A stretch of 38,034 bases of DNA from a virus. The stretch spans positions 1 through 38,034 of the IMG/VR virus record IMGVR_UViG_3300012203_000006; one strand, 5' to 3'. The translations under genes were made by a program, and so were the position numbers. Of the stretch, positions 11,083 to 20,786 are shown piece by piece; the stretch's first letter is position 1, and every line of letters starts with the position of its first letter. The notes under the pieces are model-generated. The model saw nothing but the letters and a program-made list of their open reading frames with translations, made no database searches and had not been told where the DNA came from.

Positions 11083-12117
11083 ATGGTAATGAAAAAGATT
11101 TCAGAGAAAGATAATAGCTTAGCGACTCTTATTGACACTGCCAGTGTTCGCAAATGGTTAGGTGAATACCAGAGCGTTCTAATGCTGGTCCAAAAACCGG
11201 ACGAAGCAAAGCGGGCGCTGACACGAATTGATTTAGCGACTGAATATGTTCGACAGCTCAAGCTCGGCGTCACCGTTGAAATGGAGGTCGTTGAGACCGC
11301 GGTTTTTACTGAGTTCGTTCTCGGGCAAACGCTAACGAACGCAAAGAAAGCCGGCGAGTTGCGTCAAGGGCCACGAAAATCAAAAGTCGTCATTAACGAC
11401 TTTTTCTCTTTAAAAGACGCTGGGATAACAAAGGACGAATCAGCTCACGCGCAGCGCTACGTTGAGTATGTTGAGAAGTTCGATCTCGATTCACTACGCG
11501 AATTGGTTCACGAGCGGAAGGTTGAGCAAACACTGAGCCGTTCATCGATCTACAAAACGATCGATCAAGCGTTACGGCGCATTGAGCACCAGGAGAACTC
11601 TGAGCCGACTTTCTCACCCTCAAAGGGACCGTTCGATATTATCTTGGCGGATCCACCGTGGCAGTATGACGCGGCGTCAACCGAAAGCCGGGCGATTGAG
11701 AACCAGTATCCAACAGCAACCCTTGAGCAAATCAAAGAGCATATACCGGACGCGGCCGATGAAAGTGTTCTTTTCCTATGGGCGACCGCACCTAAGCTCT
11801 GCGAAGCGCTTGAGGTCCTTGCCGCGTGGGGATTCACTTACCGCACTCACGCCATCTGGGATAAGCAGATCATTGGAATGGGTTTCTGGTTCCGCGGGCA
11901 GCATGAGCTATTGTTAGTTGGTGTCCGTGGCGGGTTCCCGCCGCCGGCAGATTTTTTGCGGGTAAGCTCAATTTTCAGCGAAAAGCGTTCGAGTCACAGC
12001 ACAAAGCCGGAGTGCGTTTACCAATGGATTGAGAAGGCGTGGCCACAAACGCAGAAGCAGGAAATGTACGGGCGAAAAGCGCGGGCTGGGTGGTCCATGT
12101 GGGGAAATCAGGCATGA
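11083..12117 (+). CDS. MT-A70 family adenine N6-methyltransferase
   Basis: 344 residues from ATG 11083, with an alternative ATG at 11089. The catalytic motif DPPW is at residues 190-193 within FDIILADPPWQYD. It is followed by VLFLWATAP, the MT-A70 pattern, and by motifs near the C-terminus (HELLLVGVRG, KPECVYQWIEK). The N-terminal 170 residues are helical and contain FFSLKDAGITKDESAHAQR, a ParB/HTH-like segment that may bind DNA. The family methylates the adenine N6 position. In phages it usually guards DNA against host restriction or marks replication sites. GATGGCATTGAATGG directly precedes the start. Confidence 0.85.
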   Translation: MVMKKISEKDNSLATLIDTASVRKWLGEYQSVLMLVQKPDEAKRALTRIDLATEYVRQLKLGVTVEMEVVETAVFTEFVLGQTLTNAKKAGELRQGPRKSKVVINDFFSLKDAGITKDESAHAQRYVEYVEKFDLDSLRELVHERKVEQTLSRSSIYKTIDQALRRIEHQENSEPTFSPSKGPFDIILADPPWQYDAASTESRAIENQYPTATLEQIKEHIPDAADESVLFLWATAPKLCEALEVLAAWGFTYRTHAIWDKQIIGMGFWFRGQHELLLVGVRGGFPPPADFLRVSSIFSEKRSSHSTKPECVYQWIEKAWPQTQKQEMYGRKARAGWSMWGNQA

Positions 12118-14593: not shown

Positions 14594-14704
14594 CCTCCCC
14601 ACTTTCAAAAGTGCGCGTACTTTTTTCCAGAGAGCAAAGGATCGCTCGGTCTTTTGCGCCCACAACAACTTTGGCTCGGGTACGCGCACCTTTGAGAGGG
14701 GGGG
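14594..14704. repeat. Long imperfect inverted repeat with internal hairpin
   Basis: Arms at 14594-14620 and 14680-14704 pair over about 23 positions. The inner 10 bp are perfect (GTGCGCGTAC / GTACGCGCAC) and the outer part is CCTCCCC against GGGGGGG. The 59-nt loop has a second stem, GCAAAGGA (14634-14641) with TCTTTTGC (14650-14657), loop TCGCTCGG. It ends four bases before the GTG of the DnaB-N-like gene. It could be a structured leader RNA, a single-strand origin, or a relic mobile repeat. Confidence 0.6.
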
Positions 14705-14707
14705 CTC

Positions 14708-15235
14708 GTGCCTGAGTCCTTCATTTTCGCCCCGGAAATCGAGGTTGCCACGGTCTCCTTGATCTGGAAACAACCCGAGCGCTGCGCCCGATTCCTGCGC
14801 GATCTCGACCCGGCCCTTCACCTGAGCCAACCCCATCTGCGCTACATCGTGGAAGCCGTCGCCTTGGCTTACTCGGAGCTAGGTTGCGCCGACTGGGCCA
14901 CCGTAGTCGGCGTCTTGCGGGAACTAAAACACTTCGAGGATTGCGGCGAACTCCTGGGCCTAAACGAAGTCTACTCAGCAGTCGAGATCACCCCCGTTAG
15001 TGACCAGATCTTTGATCATTACGTTTCGATGCTTCAATCCTACGCCTTGGGTCGAGAAAAAAATCAATCCGTTTATCGATTCAATCGTGGCGATATCAAT
15101 TTGGTCAAAAACAAAGTCAAACGCATTGAGTCCGCCCCGGATTTTATCGGCGAAGGCAAGGTCGCCGGCCGCCTCTACCGGGCCGCGGCATGGACCAACA
15201 CCGATGGACTTTCAATCTCCCTAATCCCAAAATGA
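14708..15235 (+). CDS. Stand-alone DnaB N-terminal-domain-like protein
   Basis: 175 residues from GTG 14708. Residues 10-120 (ATVSLIWKQPERCARFLRDL ... DWATVVGVLRELKHFEDCG) follow the all-helical DnaB-N pattern: a first helix with the LL-x-P loop, HxxI/VxxA, TVxxxL and a helix ending with Y/L..A..RE. There is no P-loop. The next gene has the P-loop ATPase, so the replicative helicase is split over two genes, or this protein captures the host helicase. The GTG start is chosen because GAGGGGGGG precedes it. Confidence 0.65.
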   Translation: MPESFIFAPEIEVATVSLIWKQPERCARFLRDLDPALHLSQPHLRYIVEAVALAYSELGCADWATVVGVLRELKHFEDCGELLGLNEVYSAVEITPVSDQIFDHYVSMLQSYALGREKNQSVYRFNRGDINLVKNKVKRIESAPDFIGEGKVAGRLYRAAAWTNTDGLSISLIPK

Positions 15236-15248
15236 ACTCGATCACGTC

Positions 15249-16274
15249 ATGGCCGACCATTTCGATCCATTCAGGCAGGAAGCCGCCAGCTCTAAAGCTC
15301 CAATCTATCCTCAAGCCATCGAGTATAATCAATTCGAAAAAGCTCCGGTCGAAATACCTAAATCCATCATTGACAACTTGTTAGATGATTCAAGCCGGAT
15401 GATTTTCGGTGGCGGAAGTAAAACCTACAAAACCTGGGCGATGAGCGAACAAGCCATCTGTATCTCGTGCGGCGCCCCATGGTGGGGCTTTAATACCCAT
15501 CAAGTCAAAGTCCTCTACGTCAATTTCGAACTCAAAGAGTTCTATGCTCAACGCCGGTTTAAAGCCATCCGCGAATTCAAACGCCTCAGAATTGCGCCTA
15601 ACATGTTCTTAGTCTGGAACTTGCGCGGTTTCGATATCCCGATGTCGACCTTTGAGCCGGAGTTAATCAAAATGATCAGAGTCCATGCCATCGTGGTCGT
15701 CTTTATCGATCCGTTCTATCGCCTCCTAGGCGAGTCAGACGAAAGAATCAGCTCAGAGTTAATGCCGCTCCTTCTGATGTTTGAACGAATCAATAAAGTA
15801 ACCGGCGCAAGCGTTGTTTGCTCCGCCCATTTTACCAAAGGCAATCAAGCCGCCAAAGATCCGATCGACCGGATTAGCGGCGGCGCCAGTATCCATCGCC
15901 ACCCAGACAGCCTCATCACCCTAACCAAACACGAAACCGATCACGCTTTTACCGTTGACCTTACCTGCCGCGATTTCCCCCCAGTAAATCCTTTTGTCGT
16001 CAAATGGGATCACCCCTTGCTCGTTCGTACCGATCTGGACCCCCAAAAAATCAAGACTCCAGCCCTCGGCCGCCAAAAACATTACAGCACTGAGCAGATT
16101 CTCGAGGTTTTAGCCGATTGCGATGACCAGCTCTCAACCAGCGCTCTTCAAGAAAAAGTGAAAACCGAATGCGGGATGAGTTCAGGCAAATTCTATGAAC
16201 TCTTCAGCCAACTCAAAACCGATCAAAAAATCTTCAAATCCAAACTTACTCAGTTTTGGAATATCAAAGCTTGA
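15249..16274 (+). CDS. RepA-like (AAA_25) hexameric replicative helicase
   Basis: 341 residues. Walker A is GGGSKTYKTW (54-63), Walker B VVVFIDPFYR (149-158) and the sensor CSAHFTKG (191-198), followed by RISGGASIHRHPDS, the AAA_25 arginine/glycine segment. Residues 270-341 form a winged helix (STEQILEVLADCDDQ, STSALQEKV, SSGKFYELFSQL). This is the plasmid RSF1010 RepA and phage RepA-like family, a 5'-3' DNA helicase. It starts 13 bp after the DnaB-N-like gene. It probably unwinds DNA at the repeat cluster that follows. Confidence 0.8.
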   Translation: MADHFDPFRQEAASSKAPIYPQAIEYNQFEKAPVEIPKSIIDNLLDDSSRMIFGGGSKTYKTWAMSEQAICISCGAPWWGFNTHQVKVLYVNFELKEFYAQRRFKAIREFKRLRIAPNMFLVWNLRGFDIPMSTFEPELIKMIRVHAIVVVFIDPFYRLLGESDERISSELMPLLLMFERINKVTGASVVCSAHFTKGNQAAKDPIDRISGGASIHRHPDSLITLTKHETDHAFTVDLTCRDFPPVNPFVVKWDHPLLVRTDLDPQKIKTPALGRQKHYSTEQILEVLADCDDQLSTSALQEKVKTECGMSSGKFYELFSQLKTDQKIFKSKLTQFWNIKA

Positions 16275-16280
16275 AACATC

Positions 16281-16461
16281 ACTCCAGAAATTATTTGCTT
16301 GACATGTTATCTCCAAATTTCGTTTCCCTATATATTACTCCAGTAATTTGGGCTTCGCCCACCCGAAGGGGTCAATTACTGGAGTAAATATTGGAGTAGA
16401 GAGGACTACTCCAGAAACTCTAGCTGCTCCACTCCAGCTATTAATGGAATTACTGGAGTAA
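16281..16461. repeat. Seven ACTCCAG repeats with cruciform core (origin/pac/operator candidate)
   Basis: Copies lie at 16281-16292, 16335-16348, 16374-16387, 16390-16398, 16405-16417, 16431-16440 and 16448-16461. The fullest form is TTACTCCAGTAATT, which is nearly palindromic. Copies 3, 4 and 7 are inverted. Copies 2 and 3 pair as a 14-bp stem that encloses two short hairpins (GGGC-TTC-GCCC at 16350-16360 and CCC-GAA-GGG at 16362-16370), giving a three-way junction. A+T-rich runs flank the cluster (tatatatt at 16329-16336, aaatatatataa at 16461-16472). It lies between the helicase and TerS genes. Confidence 0.7.
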
Positions 16462-16476
16462 AATATATATAATGCA

Positions 16477-16944
16477 ATGCCAAAGCCAATCGGCCGACCC
16501 AAAACCATTACTAAAAGCCTCGAAAAGATAATCGCCGAGCTCTTCTGGCTCGCTTTTACCGACGAACAAGTCGCCCTTTTTACAGGCATTAATCGCAGCA
16601 CAATCCAGCGCGCCAGAGCCGGTACGTTTTGCATCGCGATAAAAAGAGCCGAGATCAAACGCGAGATGATTTACCGGCGTAAAATCTGGTCAGGCAAAGA
16701 GGGCTGGCAAGGTGCAGCTTGGTCCATGGAACGCAAGTATCCAGGGCAATTCTCCAAGCCCGAGGTCCAACTTCAGATCAACACGACTAACCAGACCGTC
16801 AACAACACCCTGATTGTAAGCGCGGAGGTCGCCGGCCAGATGAGTCACAGGGTTAAGGAGGCTAACACTAAAGTCGCCGAACTCTTTAAACGCAAAAACC
16901 CCGAACTAAAAGATGGCAACGGCAACGGCAACAAAACTTCTTAG
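16477..16944 (+). CDS. terS: Terminase small subunit
   Basis: 155 residues. The N-terminal HTH (SLEKIIAELFWLAFTDEQVALFTGINRSTIQRARAG) has the TerS pattern of a helix, FTDEQVA turn and STIQRARA recognition helix. A helical oligomerisation core (IKRAEIKREMIYRRKIWSG, AWSMERKYPGQF) and a polar tail with an Asn/Thr-rich segment (NTTNQTVNNT) follow. TerS rings bind the packaging site and hand the DNA to TerL. The repeat cluster ends 15 bp before its start, so it may bind its own upstream region. Family length is usually 140-180. Confidence 0.75.
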   Translation: MPKPIGRPKTITKSLEKIIAELFWLAFTDEQVALFTGINRSTIQRARAGTFCIAIKRAEIKREMIYRRKIWSGKEGWQGAAWSMERKYPGQFSKPEVQLQINTTNQTVNNTLIVSAEVAGQMSHRVKEANTKVAELFKRKNPELKDGNGNGNKTS

Positions 16945-17164
16945 CTCTGGTAAGCTTCCTCTTGGATATAAGATTTACCCTGAAATTGACGGGGCTCGCT
17001 TTGAAACCCCTACAACTTTTGGCTGGTGTAAAAGCCGTGCGATAGCCTTGGAAGAAATCAAAAGAGAGATTCGCACCGGAGAACCAGCGTGGCGGATTCC
17101 ATTCGGTAAATCAAAACGATTAAATTCGTGTGACACACGAGTTTATACCAGAGGCAACGCTTAA
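16913..17164 (+). CDS. Hypothetical protein overlapping TerS
   Basis: 83 residues, with the first 32 bp inside the TerS gene in another frame. After MATATATKLLSSGKLPLGYKI the sequence is a plausible small domain (EIDGARFETPTTFGWCKS, IALEEIKREI), ending basic. No signal or TM. It lies between TerS and TerL; some phages place an HNH or small accessory gene here, but no HNH motif is seen. Confidence 0.5.
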   Translation: MATATATKLLSSGKLPLGYKIYPEIDGARFETPTTFGWCKSRAIALEEIKREIRTGEPAWRIPFGKSKRLNSCDTRVYTRGNA

Positions 17165-19434: not shown

Positions 19435-19674
19435 ATGGCCATCGCGACGACGGTAGCGCGCAATTCGTTTAACACCGGGCTTTACGGCTCGATCAATCTC
19501 TGGCTGGCGAGCACGGTCGGGATTCTGCCGACAACGCCGTTGACCGTAGCTGGCGACTTGGTGTTAACGCCATATGACCCGCGGCCCAATAACGTTTGGA
19601 AGTGCAAAGTGACCACAATGCCGCGGGGCAAGAACCGCATGATTGTTCGGATTGGGGATGCGGTGACCGGGTGA
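19435..19674 (+). CDS. Hypothetical structural-region protein
   Basis: 79 residues with beta-strand character (LYGSINLWLAS, LTVAGDLVLTPY, VWKCKVTTMPRGKNRMIVRIG). Similar in size and texture to its two upstream neighbours. The stop overlaps the GTG start of the methyltransferase (GTGA at 19671-19674), so the methylase is probably translated by coupling. Confidence 0.6.
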   Translation: MAIATTVARNSFNTGLYGSINLWLASTVGILPTTPLTVAGDLVLTPYDPRPNNVWKCKVTTMPRGKNRMIVRIGDAVTG

Positions 19675-20786
19675 TCCAGTTTTTACAAGGCGATTGCCGC
19701 GACATCCTGCCGACGTTACCGGCTGAGAGCGTGCAGTGTTGCGTGACGTCGCCGCCCTACTGGGGTTTGCGCGACTACGGCACGGCGAGCTGGGAAGGCG
19801 GGAATGCGGGGTGCGATCACATAATAGATCATTCGGTCGTGAAACCCATGTTGGATGGACGAGGGAAGATTGGAACGTCGTGTACTTCTTGGACAACTCG
19901 CGCGGATCGTGGAGGAAAGAGAGTCTGCAATTGCGGAGCCCGCCGCATCGATTCACAGATTGGCTTGGAATCGACGCCCGAAGAGTACATCGCCAGCATG
20001 GTTGCCGTGTTTCGCGAGGTCTGGCGCGTGCTGCGCCACGACGGGACGCTTTGGGTTAATTGTGGTGACTCGTACTCTTCTGGAAATAGCGGGCAGCGTG
20101 TACGAGATAGTAACGGAGGTTTCCAGCCAGGGTTGAACACCATGACCCAGGCAAACACAAAGGCTAATCCAGGAAGACCACCAGTTACCGGCATGAAGCC
20201 CAAAGATCTACTGATGATGCCCGCCCGCCTCGCAATGGCGCTGCAGGCCGATGGCTGGTACCTGCGCAGCGAGATTGTGTGGGCGAAGCCAAATCCCATG
20301 CCCGAAAGCGTGACCGATCGGCCGACAAAAAGCCACGAGATGATTTACTTGCTCGCGAAACAGGAACGCTATTTTTACGATACGGACGCGATTAAGGAAG
20401 ATAGCTCAAAAATGGATGGCGCTATCAGTGTTCGTACATGGCAATATGAAGATGGCAGCTCTAATCCTCACGGCGGTGGGTTTCGAGGAGAAGGAGGTTT
20501 AGCTAATCGAATTAGTAACGGTTTGCGCAACAAGCGCTCGGTCTGGACGGTCGCCACGCAACCTTACAGCGAAGCCCATTTTGCCACGTTCCCCGAAGAC
20601 CTAATTAAACCGTGCATTCTCGCTGGCAGCCGCGCCGGCGATACCGTTCTTGACCCATTCGCCGGGAGCGGTACGACTGGCCAGGTGGCAATCGAGCTCG
20701 GCCGAAAAGCTATACTTATCGAACTGAACCCGGCTTACATGGAGCTTGCCCAGGACCGGACAAACGTAACTGCAGGATTTTTCTAG
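19671..20786 (+). CDS. DNA methyltransferase, TSPPYW type (N4-cytosine / N6-adenine)
   Basis: 371 residues from GTG 19671, which overlaps the previous stop. A longer open frame back to 19596 runs inside that gene and is not needed. The catalytic motif TSPPYWGLRDYG is at residues 26-37 and the AdoMet motif DPFAGSGTTG near residue 328, so the order is catalytic first, AdoMet last (beta class). The central part (about 90-290) is the target-recognition region. Family members methylate DNA at N4-cytosine or N6-adenine. Lying among head genes, it probably protects packaged DNA or is a cargo gene. Confidence 0.8.
   Translation: MIQFLQGDCRDILPTLPAESVQCCVTSPPYWGLRDYGTASWEGGNAGCDHIIDHSVVKPMLDGRGKIGTSCTSWTTRADRGGKRVCNCGARRIDSQIGLESTPEEYIASMVAVFREVWRVLRHDGTLWVNCGDSYSSGNSGQRVRDSNGGFQPGLNTMTQANTKANPGRPPVTGMKPKDLLMMPARLAMALQADGWYLRSEIVWAKPNPMPESVTDRPTKSHEMIYLLAKQERYFYDTDAIKEDSSKMDGAISVRTWQYEDGSSNPHGGGFRGEGGLANRISNGLRNKRSVWTVATQPYSEAHFATFPEDLIKPCILAGSRAGDTVLDPFAGSGTTGQVAIELGRKAILIELNPAYMELAQDRTNVTAGFF

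Follow-up and report, generated by a model that had tools for sequence, protein, structure and literature searches.

What is a dense cluster of ACTCCAG repeats doing between a RepA-like helicase gene and TerS? For the window (the whole stretch of 38,034 nucleotides that was analysed), the initial annotation left three options: a replication origin with iterons, a TerS-binding pac/cos region, or a late-gene operator. Our data strongly favor the origin, because the cluster tracks the helicase stop and its motif co-varies with the winged helix of that helicase; the distance to TerS in relatives, or the lack of a TerS hit nearby, disfavors the other two. It is highly probable that 16275-16476 is a phage replication origin with iterons read by the helicase's own C-terminal winged helix, which would place the hexamer there. 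The elements of the region are as follows.

16275 to 16476, no strand: whole proposed origin, from helicase stop to TerS start
16281 to 16287, plus strand: iteron 1, ACTCCAG (motif position search)
16329 to 16348, no strand: outer inverted repeat, left arm with TATATA, candidate easily melted DNA (inverted-repeat search, A+T profile)
16335 to 16387, no strand: iteron-capped three-way junction with 14-bp stem (DNA fold z −5.9)
16337 to 16343, plus strand: iteron 2, ACTCCAG, left arm of the central stem (motif and inverted-repeat search)
16349 to 16361: hairpin TGGGC-TTC-GCCCA in the three-way junction
16362 to 16371: hairpin CCC-GAAG-GGG in the three-way junction
16379 to 16385, minus strand: iteron 3, ACTCCAG, right arm of the central stem (motif and inverted-repeat search)
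16391 to 16397, minus strand: iteron 4, ACTCCAA, one mismatch (TTGGAGT on the plus strand)
16408 to 16414, plus strand: iteron 5, ACTCCAG
16431 to 16437, plus strand: iteron 6, ACTCCAG
16448 to 16467, no strand: outer inverted repeat, right arm running into AAAATATATATAAT, candidate easily melted DNA (inverted-repeat search)
16453 to 16459, minus strand: iteron 7, ACTCCAG

The positions confirm the four direct and three inverted copies claimed within 181 bp, with the refinement that one inverted copy is mismatched: 16281-16461 holds six exact ACTCCAG and one ACTCCAA, distributed over both strands, with a 14-bp stem and the two hairpins it encloses in their midst. The cluster far exceeds chance. 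ACTCCA occurs 7 times in 16281-16461 and at most 3 times in any other 181-bp stretch checked; a search of the window for TTACTCCAGTAATT, allowing up to 3 mismatches, gave 12 matches where 2.0 were expected, and none of the shuffles had that many; and the 250 bp at the helicase stop have a repeat z of 14.3, which was matched in 0 of 200 shuffles and equalled by 1 of 746 other windows. As in iteron origins, many short repeats (seven in 181 bp) lie in a non-coding stretch adjoining the proposed initiator gene, and A+T-rich, candidate easily melted DNA adjoins them. The A+T-rich flanks noted earlier are borne out (61% A+T in 16281-16461 versus 47% for the whole window), with 74% in 50 bp near 16288 and 72% at 16424-16491, although such levels are not unique within the window. 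The GC skew of the window has only a local dip at 14-18 kb, which is not a clear origin signature.

The 14-bp stem around two GC hairpins was likewise confirmed, by complementarity (16335-16348 and 16374-16387 pair at 14 of 14 positions) and by the predicted DNA fold: as single-stranded DNA, 16329-16400 folds into the three-way junction described, at −17.5 kcal/mol (z = −5.9; 0 of 200 shuffles). A longer outer inverted repeat connects 16329-16348 with 16448-16467 (20 nt, 95%).

The neighbors of the cluster are those first annotated, since a RepA-like AAA_25 gene ends at 16274 and TerS starts at 16477. The replication genes on the helicase side are listed here.

14708 to 15235, plus strand: stand-alone DnaB N-terminal-domain-like protein (PF00772, E = 0.046, below the cut-off)
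15249 to 16274, plus strand: RepA-like AAA_25 helicase with C-terminal winged helix, proposed initiator (PF13481, E = 2.5e-22; phrog_2597 DNA primase, E = 1.3e-39)
16074 to 16271, plus strand: winged-helix domain, residues 276-341, proposed iteron reader (two structure models, Foldseek)
About residues 311-324 of the helicase (MSSGKFYELFSQLK): recognition helix within the winged helix

AAA_25 (PF13481, above the cut-off) is the sole Pfam match of the helicase. In its AlphaFold model (pLDDT 86), a RecA-fold ATPase resembling RSF1010 RepA and DnaB is followed by a low-confidence linker and then by a domain with three helices and a hairpin. RSF1010 RepA is also the nearest solved structure to the ATPase by sequence (PDB 1g8y, E = 0.003), and Foldseek matches 1olo with a TM of 0.69 by target length; with its RecA-fold RepA-type ATPase, the protein fits the RSF1010-type RepA / AAA_25 class. 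The tail is predicted to be a C-terminal winged-helix DNA-binding domain. Three helices plus the hairpin are present in two models, and the tail modelled alone has mostly winged-helix DNA-binding domains as Foldseek neighbors (LmrR, SloR, SSV1 F-93, FtsK gamma; prob mostly 0.75-0.99), with a best E of 0.087, which is non-significant for so small a fold.

The DnaB-N-like protein encoded by 14708-15235 is probably a primase-interacting partner of the helicase, to judge from homologues that pass the PF00772 cut-off (8.6e-7 in locus L011, 51% identical; 9.9e-9 in L018, 57% identical). L004 and L031 encode a CHC2/TOPRIM DnaG-like protein just upstream of the helicase, where the L021 protein matches TOPRIM weakly. 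A stand-alone DnaB-N-like protein precedes the helicase also in L011, L012, and L018, as in a split or swapped replication module. Elsewhere, at 11083-12117 and 19596-20786, the window carries two methyltransferase genes, one MT-A70 and the other an ORF that is DNA methyltransferase-like by inspection.

Is the element found in other phages? Single-sequence searches with TerS and with the helicase found no relatives; the relatives used here came from a TerL search and from alignment-based helicase searches. The TerL of the window is closest to that of Akkermansia phages, and therefore, judged by this similarity, the host is likely a member of the Verrucomicrobiota. Helicase relatives are also encoded in two Verrucomicrobiota MAG contigs (Limisphaerales L024; L025) and in one Acidobacteriia contig (L026).

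The nucleotide pattern of the inverted repeat pair had no match in viral contigs, because each TerL relative has a repeat cluster of its own. Indeed, in the TerL relatives the same place between the helicase gene and TerS is occupied by a private cluster in each, and in repeat content the 250 bp at the helicase stop rank within the top four windows of the locus, mostly first, in 41 of 61 helicase loci, which are partly redundant and include some near-duplicates (0 of 200 shuffles as high). Thus, the search for the site in relatives that had been proposed fails for the exact sequence and succeeds for the repeat element at the helicase stop. About one third of the helicase homologues have no repeat excess after the gene, and several of these have other C-termini. 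The first repeat is no more than about 35 bp away from the helicase stop in nearly all of the 26 loci analysed; the repeats of L011 become dense only further downstream. The extracted motifs of the relatives, nearly all of which occur in both orientations, include the following.

L002: repeat AAGTGCAC
L003: repeat ACCGCCAA
L004: repeat GTGCAC
L005: repeat ACTCCGAT
L018 and L020: repeat AGTCCGAT
L021: repeat AGTCCAAT
L031: repeat TGGTGCA
L039: repeat AGTCTCA
L040: repeat ACTATCA
L043 and L054: repeat GTCTCA
L047: repeat GTTCGCA

The repeats can also begin inside the gene end: the C-terminus ...SDHSDHSD of L005 is encoded by CACTCCGAT repeats, and GET/PET protein repeats in L026 are encoded by GAGAC repeats. 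Cultured phages, too, have repeats in the gap that immediately follows the homologous primase/helicase gene, clearly in EFC-1, BCJA1c, Javan199, and Javan273 and less clearly in Diane.

EFC-1 (Enterococcus): repeat AATAGCT
BCJA1c (Bacillus): repeat GAAATGA
Javan199: repeat TGCGAAAA
Javan273: repeat AGGGACA
Paenibacillus phage Diane: repeat GCCGCAA, weaker

The sequence is private to each lineage, and the architecture is conserved. The remark of the initial annotation that no element with this exact sequence has been described is correct, but it is not diagnostic, and its proposal to count a lack of conservation in relatives against its reading would mislead: the letters differ, the element is kept. 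The repeats of relatives start at the helicase stop irrespective of the gene that comes next, and we therefore assign the element to the AAA_25/RepA-like helicase gene and not to TerS.

The hairpin is part of this architecture. Of 26 loci, 25 have a hairpin capped by two inverted iterons; some of these hairpins are weak, and z versus shuffles is mostly below −4, a stability that is partly built in, as inverted iterons were selected. The three-way junction is the window's version of this conserved iteron-capped hairpin. Hairpins with a CTAAAG/CTTTAG core are enriched downstream of the helicase (11 of 54 regions versus 8 of 1267 control windows; L014, L017, L020, L021, L031, L040, L043, L051, L057, L059, and L066), and this core is possibly a priming or opening signal. 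As a universal, defining hairpin loop it was rejected, the window having C-GAA-G loops instead.

Some further loci may be mentioned here. A large group of ~680-aa primase-helicase homologues (L102, L068, L055, and relatives) has a different C-terminus, and its members share repeats of the GGTTTGAACC type downstream of the gene. In L119, L120, L131, L066, and L104, the C-terminal helix is of another kind (VPRKTL, IARTTL, IPRTSL, IPRSTL), and the repeats are of the CCGCCAA, CCGTCTA, or CGTCA type, apparently a second specificity class. The ends of IMGVR_UViG_3300021478_000071 (39.8 kb; L005 1-220, L008 2288-2437) overlap by ~150 bp, with at least 1 mismatch, inside the helicase gene, and we therefore regard this genome as circular or circularly permuted, its assembly having broken just before the origin. 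The contigs of L002 and L003 also end within about 550 bp of their proposed origins.

If the winged helix reads the repeats, the two should change together, and this was observed: repeat similarity follows the winged helix and not the ATPase. Across 26 loci, motif similarity correlated with winged-helix similarity (r = 0.39), and the partial Mantel correlation given the ATPase was 0.37 (reached in 0 of 4000 permutations) in a test that holds ATPase similarity constant and does not fully control for shared ancestry, whereas that of motif with ATPase similarity, given the winged helix, was 0.04 (p = 0.30). With eleven more loci, nine of them newly fetched, the partial correlation was 0.27 (n = 37; 0 of 3000 permutations). 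Among ATPase-similar pairs, mean motif similarity was 0.69 with alike winged helices and 0.36 with unlike ones. Automatic motif picks were poor in L012, L017, and L097; without the four weakest, the correlation was not weakened. The change can be seen base by base in the sister loci L033 and L036, in which aligned iterons switch between TGCAA and TGCCA at several sites, with the hairpin arms between them unchanged, and L018 and L020 have AGTCCGA where L021 has AGTCCAA.

In the training loci, Arg or Lys as second residue of the recognition helix goes with A-G-T repeats, and Ser, Ala, or Glu with A-C-T repeats, a pattern that was noticed after the fact and has exceptions such as L003 and L036. 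Fixed in advance of new loci, the rule held in two of three testable cases (L118, L159) and failed at the second repeat base in L123, for which the rule for the third helix position held. Resting on too few loci to be claimed, such a residue-to-base code is a lead only.

Could another protein read the repeats of this origin and only recruit the helicase? Such a reader might be host DnaA, the DnaB-N-like protein, or a small HTH protein of the phage; stand-alone helicase-recruiting initiators are common (e.g., lambda O), and several small proteins of HTH and ribbon-helix-like type are encoded in the window. However, no DnaA-type box is present, as TTWTNCACA has no match in 14632-17024 even with one mismatch allowed; the upstream gene is DnaB-N-like in some loci and a primase in others, with repeats in both kinds; and the co-variation with the helicase's winged helix at constant ATPase similarity argues against a separate reader, which we consider improbable.

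A pac site or a late operator is unlikely. Binding of TerS to the repeats as a pac or cos site would suit packaging sites, which can be near or inside terS, and in the window, L002, L004, L005, and L021, TerS does start no more than about 320 bp after the helicase stop. Yet the repeats abut the helicase stop and not TerS, another gene lies between in L003, L011, L018, and L020, and TerS is found at +211 to +995 bp (the latter in L020) or, in many repeat-bearing loci, no homologue is detected nearby; the linkage is thus to the helicase. Furthermore, TerS is conserved among L002, L004, and L005 with completely different repeats, and Akkermansia phage Chambord has TerS without repeats upstream and a different (DnaB-like) helicase. 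All this leaves a packaging site with a very small probability. The same holds for an operator or promoter of the late (TerS) operon: the place between an early-looking gene and packaging genes would suit a switch, but the gene that follows varies from locus to locus and need not be a packaging gene, there is no good sense-direction sigma-70 site (one promoter-like match in the region, on the minus strand, versus 0.9 expected), and the apparent reader of the repeats is a replicative helicase. An RNA element or transcription terminator, suggested by GC-rich hairpins between two gene blocks, is the least probable of all, as the window has no Rfam match, terminator-like sites are near chance level (2 in the region versus 0.8 expected), the sole one of the stretch being on the minus strand, and it is short DNA repeats, direct and inverted, that carry the information, with loop sequences that differ among relatives.

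With an origin read by the helicase itself as the preferred explanation, the following model can be proposed, in which we infer iteron binding, melting, ring loading, and origin activity; for binding of the repeats by the initiator, the argument is an indirect one, the co-variation. The upstream gene product would be a RepA-type ring helicase of RecA fold, joined by a linker to a C-terminal winged helix that recognizes the ACTCCAG repeats in both orientations. Helicase subunits may thereby gather on the DNA right behind their own gene, the A+T-rich flanking arms and the iteron-capped stem would then open or extrude, and helicase rings could assemble on both strands. Priming would be brought in by the upstream DnaB-N-like partner, or by a DnaG-like primase in several relatives.

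RSF1010 RepA/oriV resembles this system in the ATPase (1g8y, 1olo), but RSF1010 RepA is not known to have an iteron-binding domain, and the iterons are read by a separate protein, RepC. SaPI Rep and SCCmec Cch2 each use their C-terminal domain to bind iterons that lie immediately behind their own genes (PMC7581432). The likeness is that of a helicase with a predicted C-terminal dsDNA-binding domain and a candidate origin directly downstream of its gene; the motors differ, being DUF927 or D5-type Primase_Cterm helicases there and RecA-fold AAA_25/RepA-type here, and the system described here belongs to tailed phages and is often accompanied by a DnaB N domain split off as a separate protein or by a DnaG-like primase. 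Because the motor is neither DUF927 nor D5/Primase_Cterm, the helicase would work like SaPI Rep and Cch2 without being a member of that group. In pRN1-type plasmids (ORF904), a winged-helix replication protein is combined with a stem-loop origin just downstream of its gene, conserved in structure and not in sequence (PMC4234260); these are archaeal plasmids with an AEP primase and SF3 helicase and one long stem-loop instead of multiple iterons. In Vibrio cholerae PLE, the DNA-binding domain of the initiator RepA co-varies with the ori iterons, and cognate pairs are required (PMC8263062), a co-variation resembling that seen here; the initiator is of another type, RepA_N, and not a predicted helicase (PMC7145576). 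GP46 of lactococcal phage F13 is a RecA-like phage helicase of the RepA cluster, close to AAA_25; it is not known to have a described iteron site or origin, and the 2022 paper on it, according to which AAA_25 proteins had no known function, does not contain the term helix-turn-helix (PMC8965321). In the open-access literature searched, we found no description of this arrangement for AAA_25 helicases. Hence, the downstream iteron layout is already known for SaPI Rep and Cch2, and the version with a RecA-fold helicase, widespread in phages, is the new part.

We see about an even chance that these helicases form a widespread phage class, a RecA-fold (RepA/DnaB-like) ring helicase with its own origin-reading winged helix, in which dozens of independent specificities are predictable from the recognition helix (e.g., Arg/Lys at the second position with A-G-T and small or acidic residues with A-C-T). 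The origins of most environmental phages are unknown, and the rule "behind the AAA_25 helicase gene with a winged-helix tail" gives candidate origins in dozens of genomes, including those of cultured Enterococcus, Bacillus, and Streptococcus phages. RecA-fold ring helicases often need separate proteins as initiators and loaders, and our model proposes how one could find its origin without help; it also supplies many natural pairs of helicase and origin in which to study how specificity changes.
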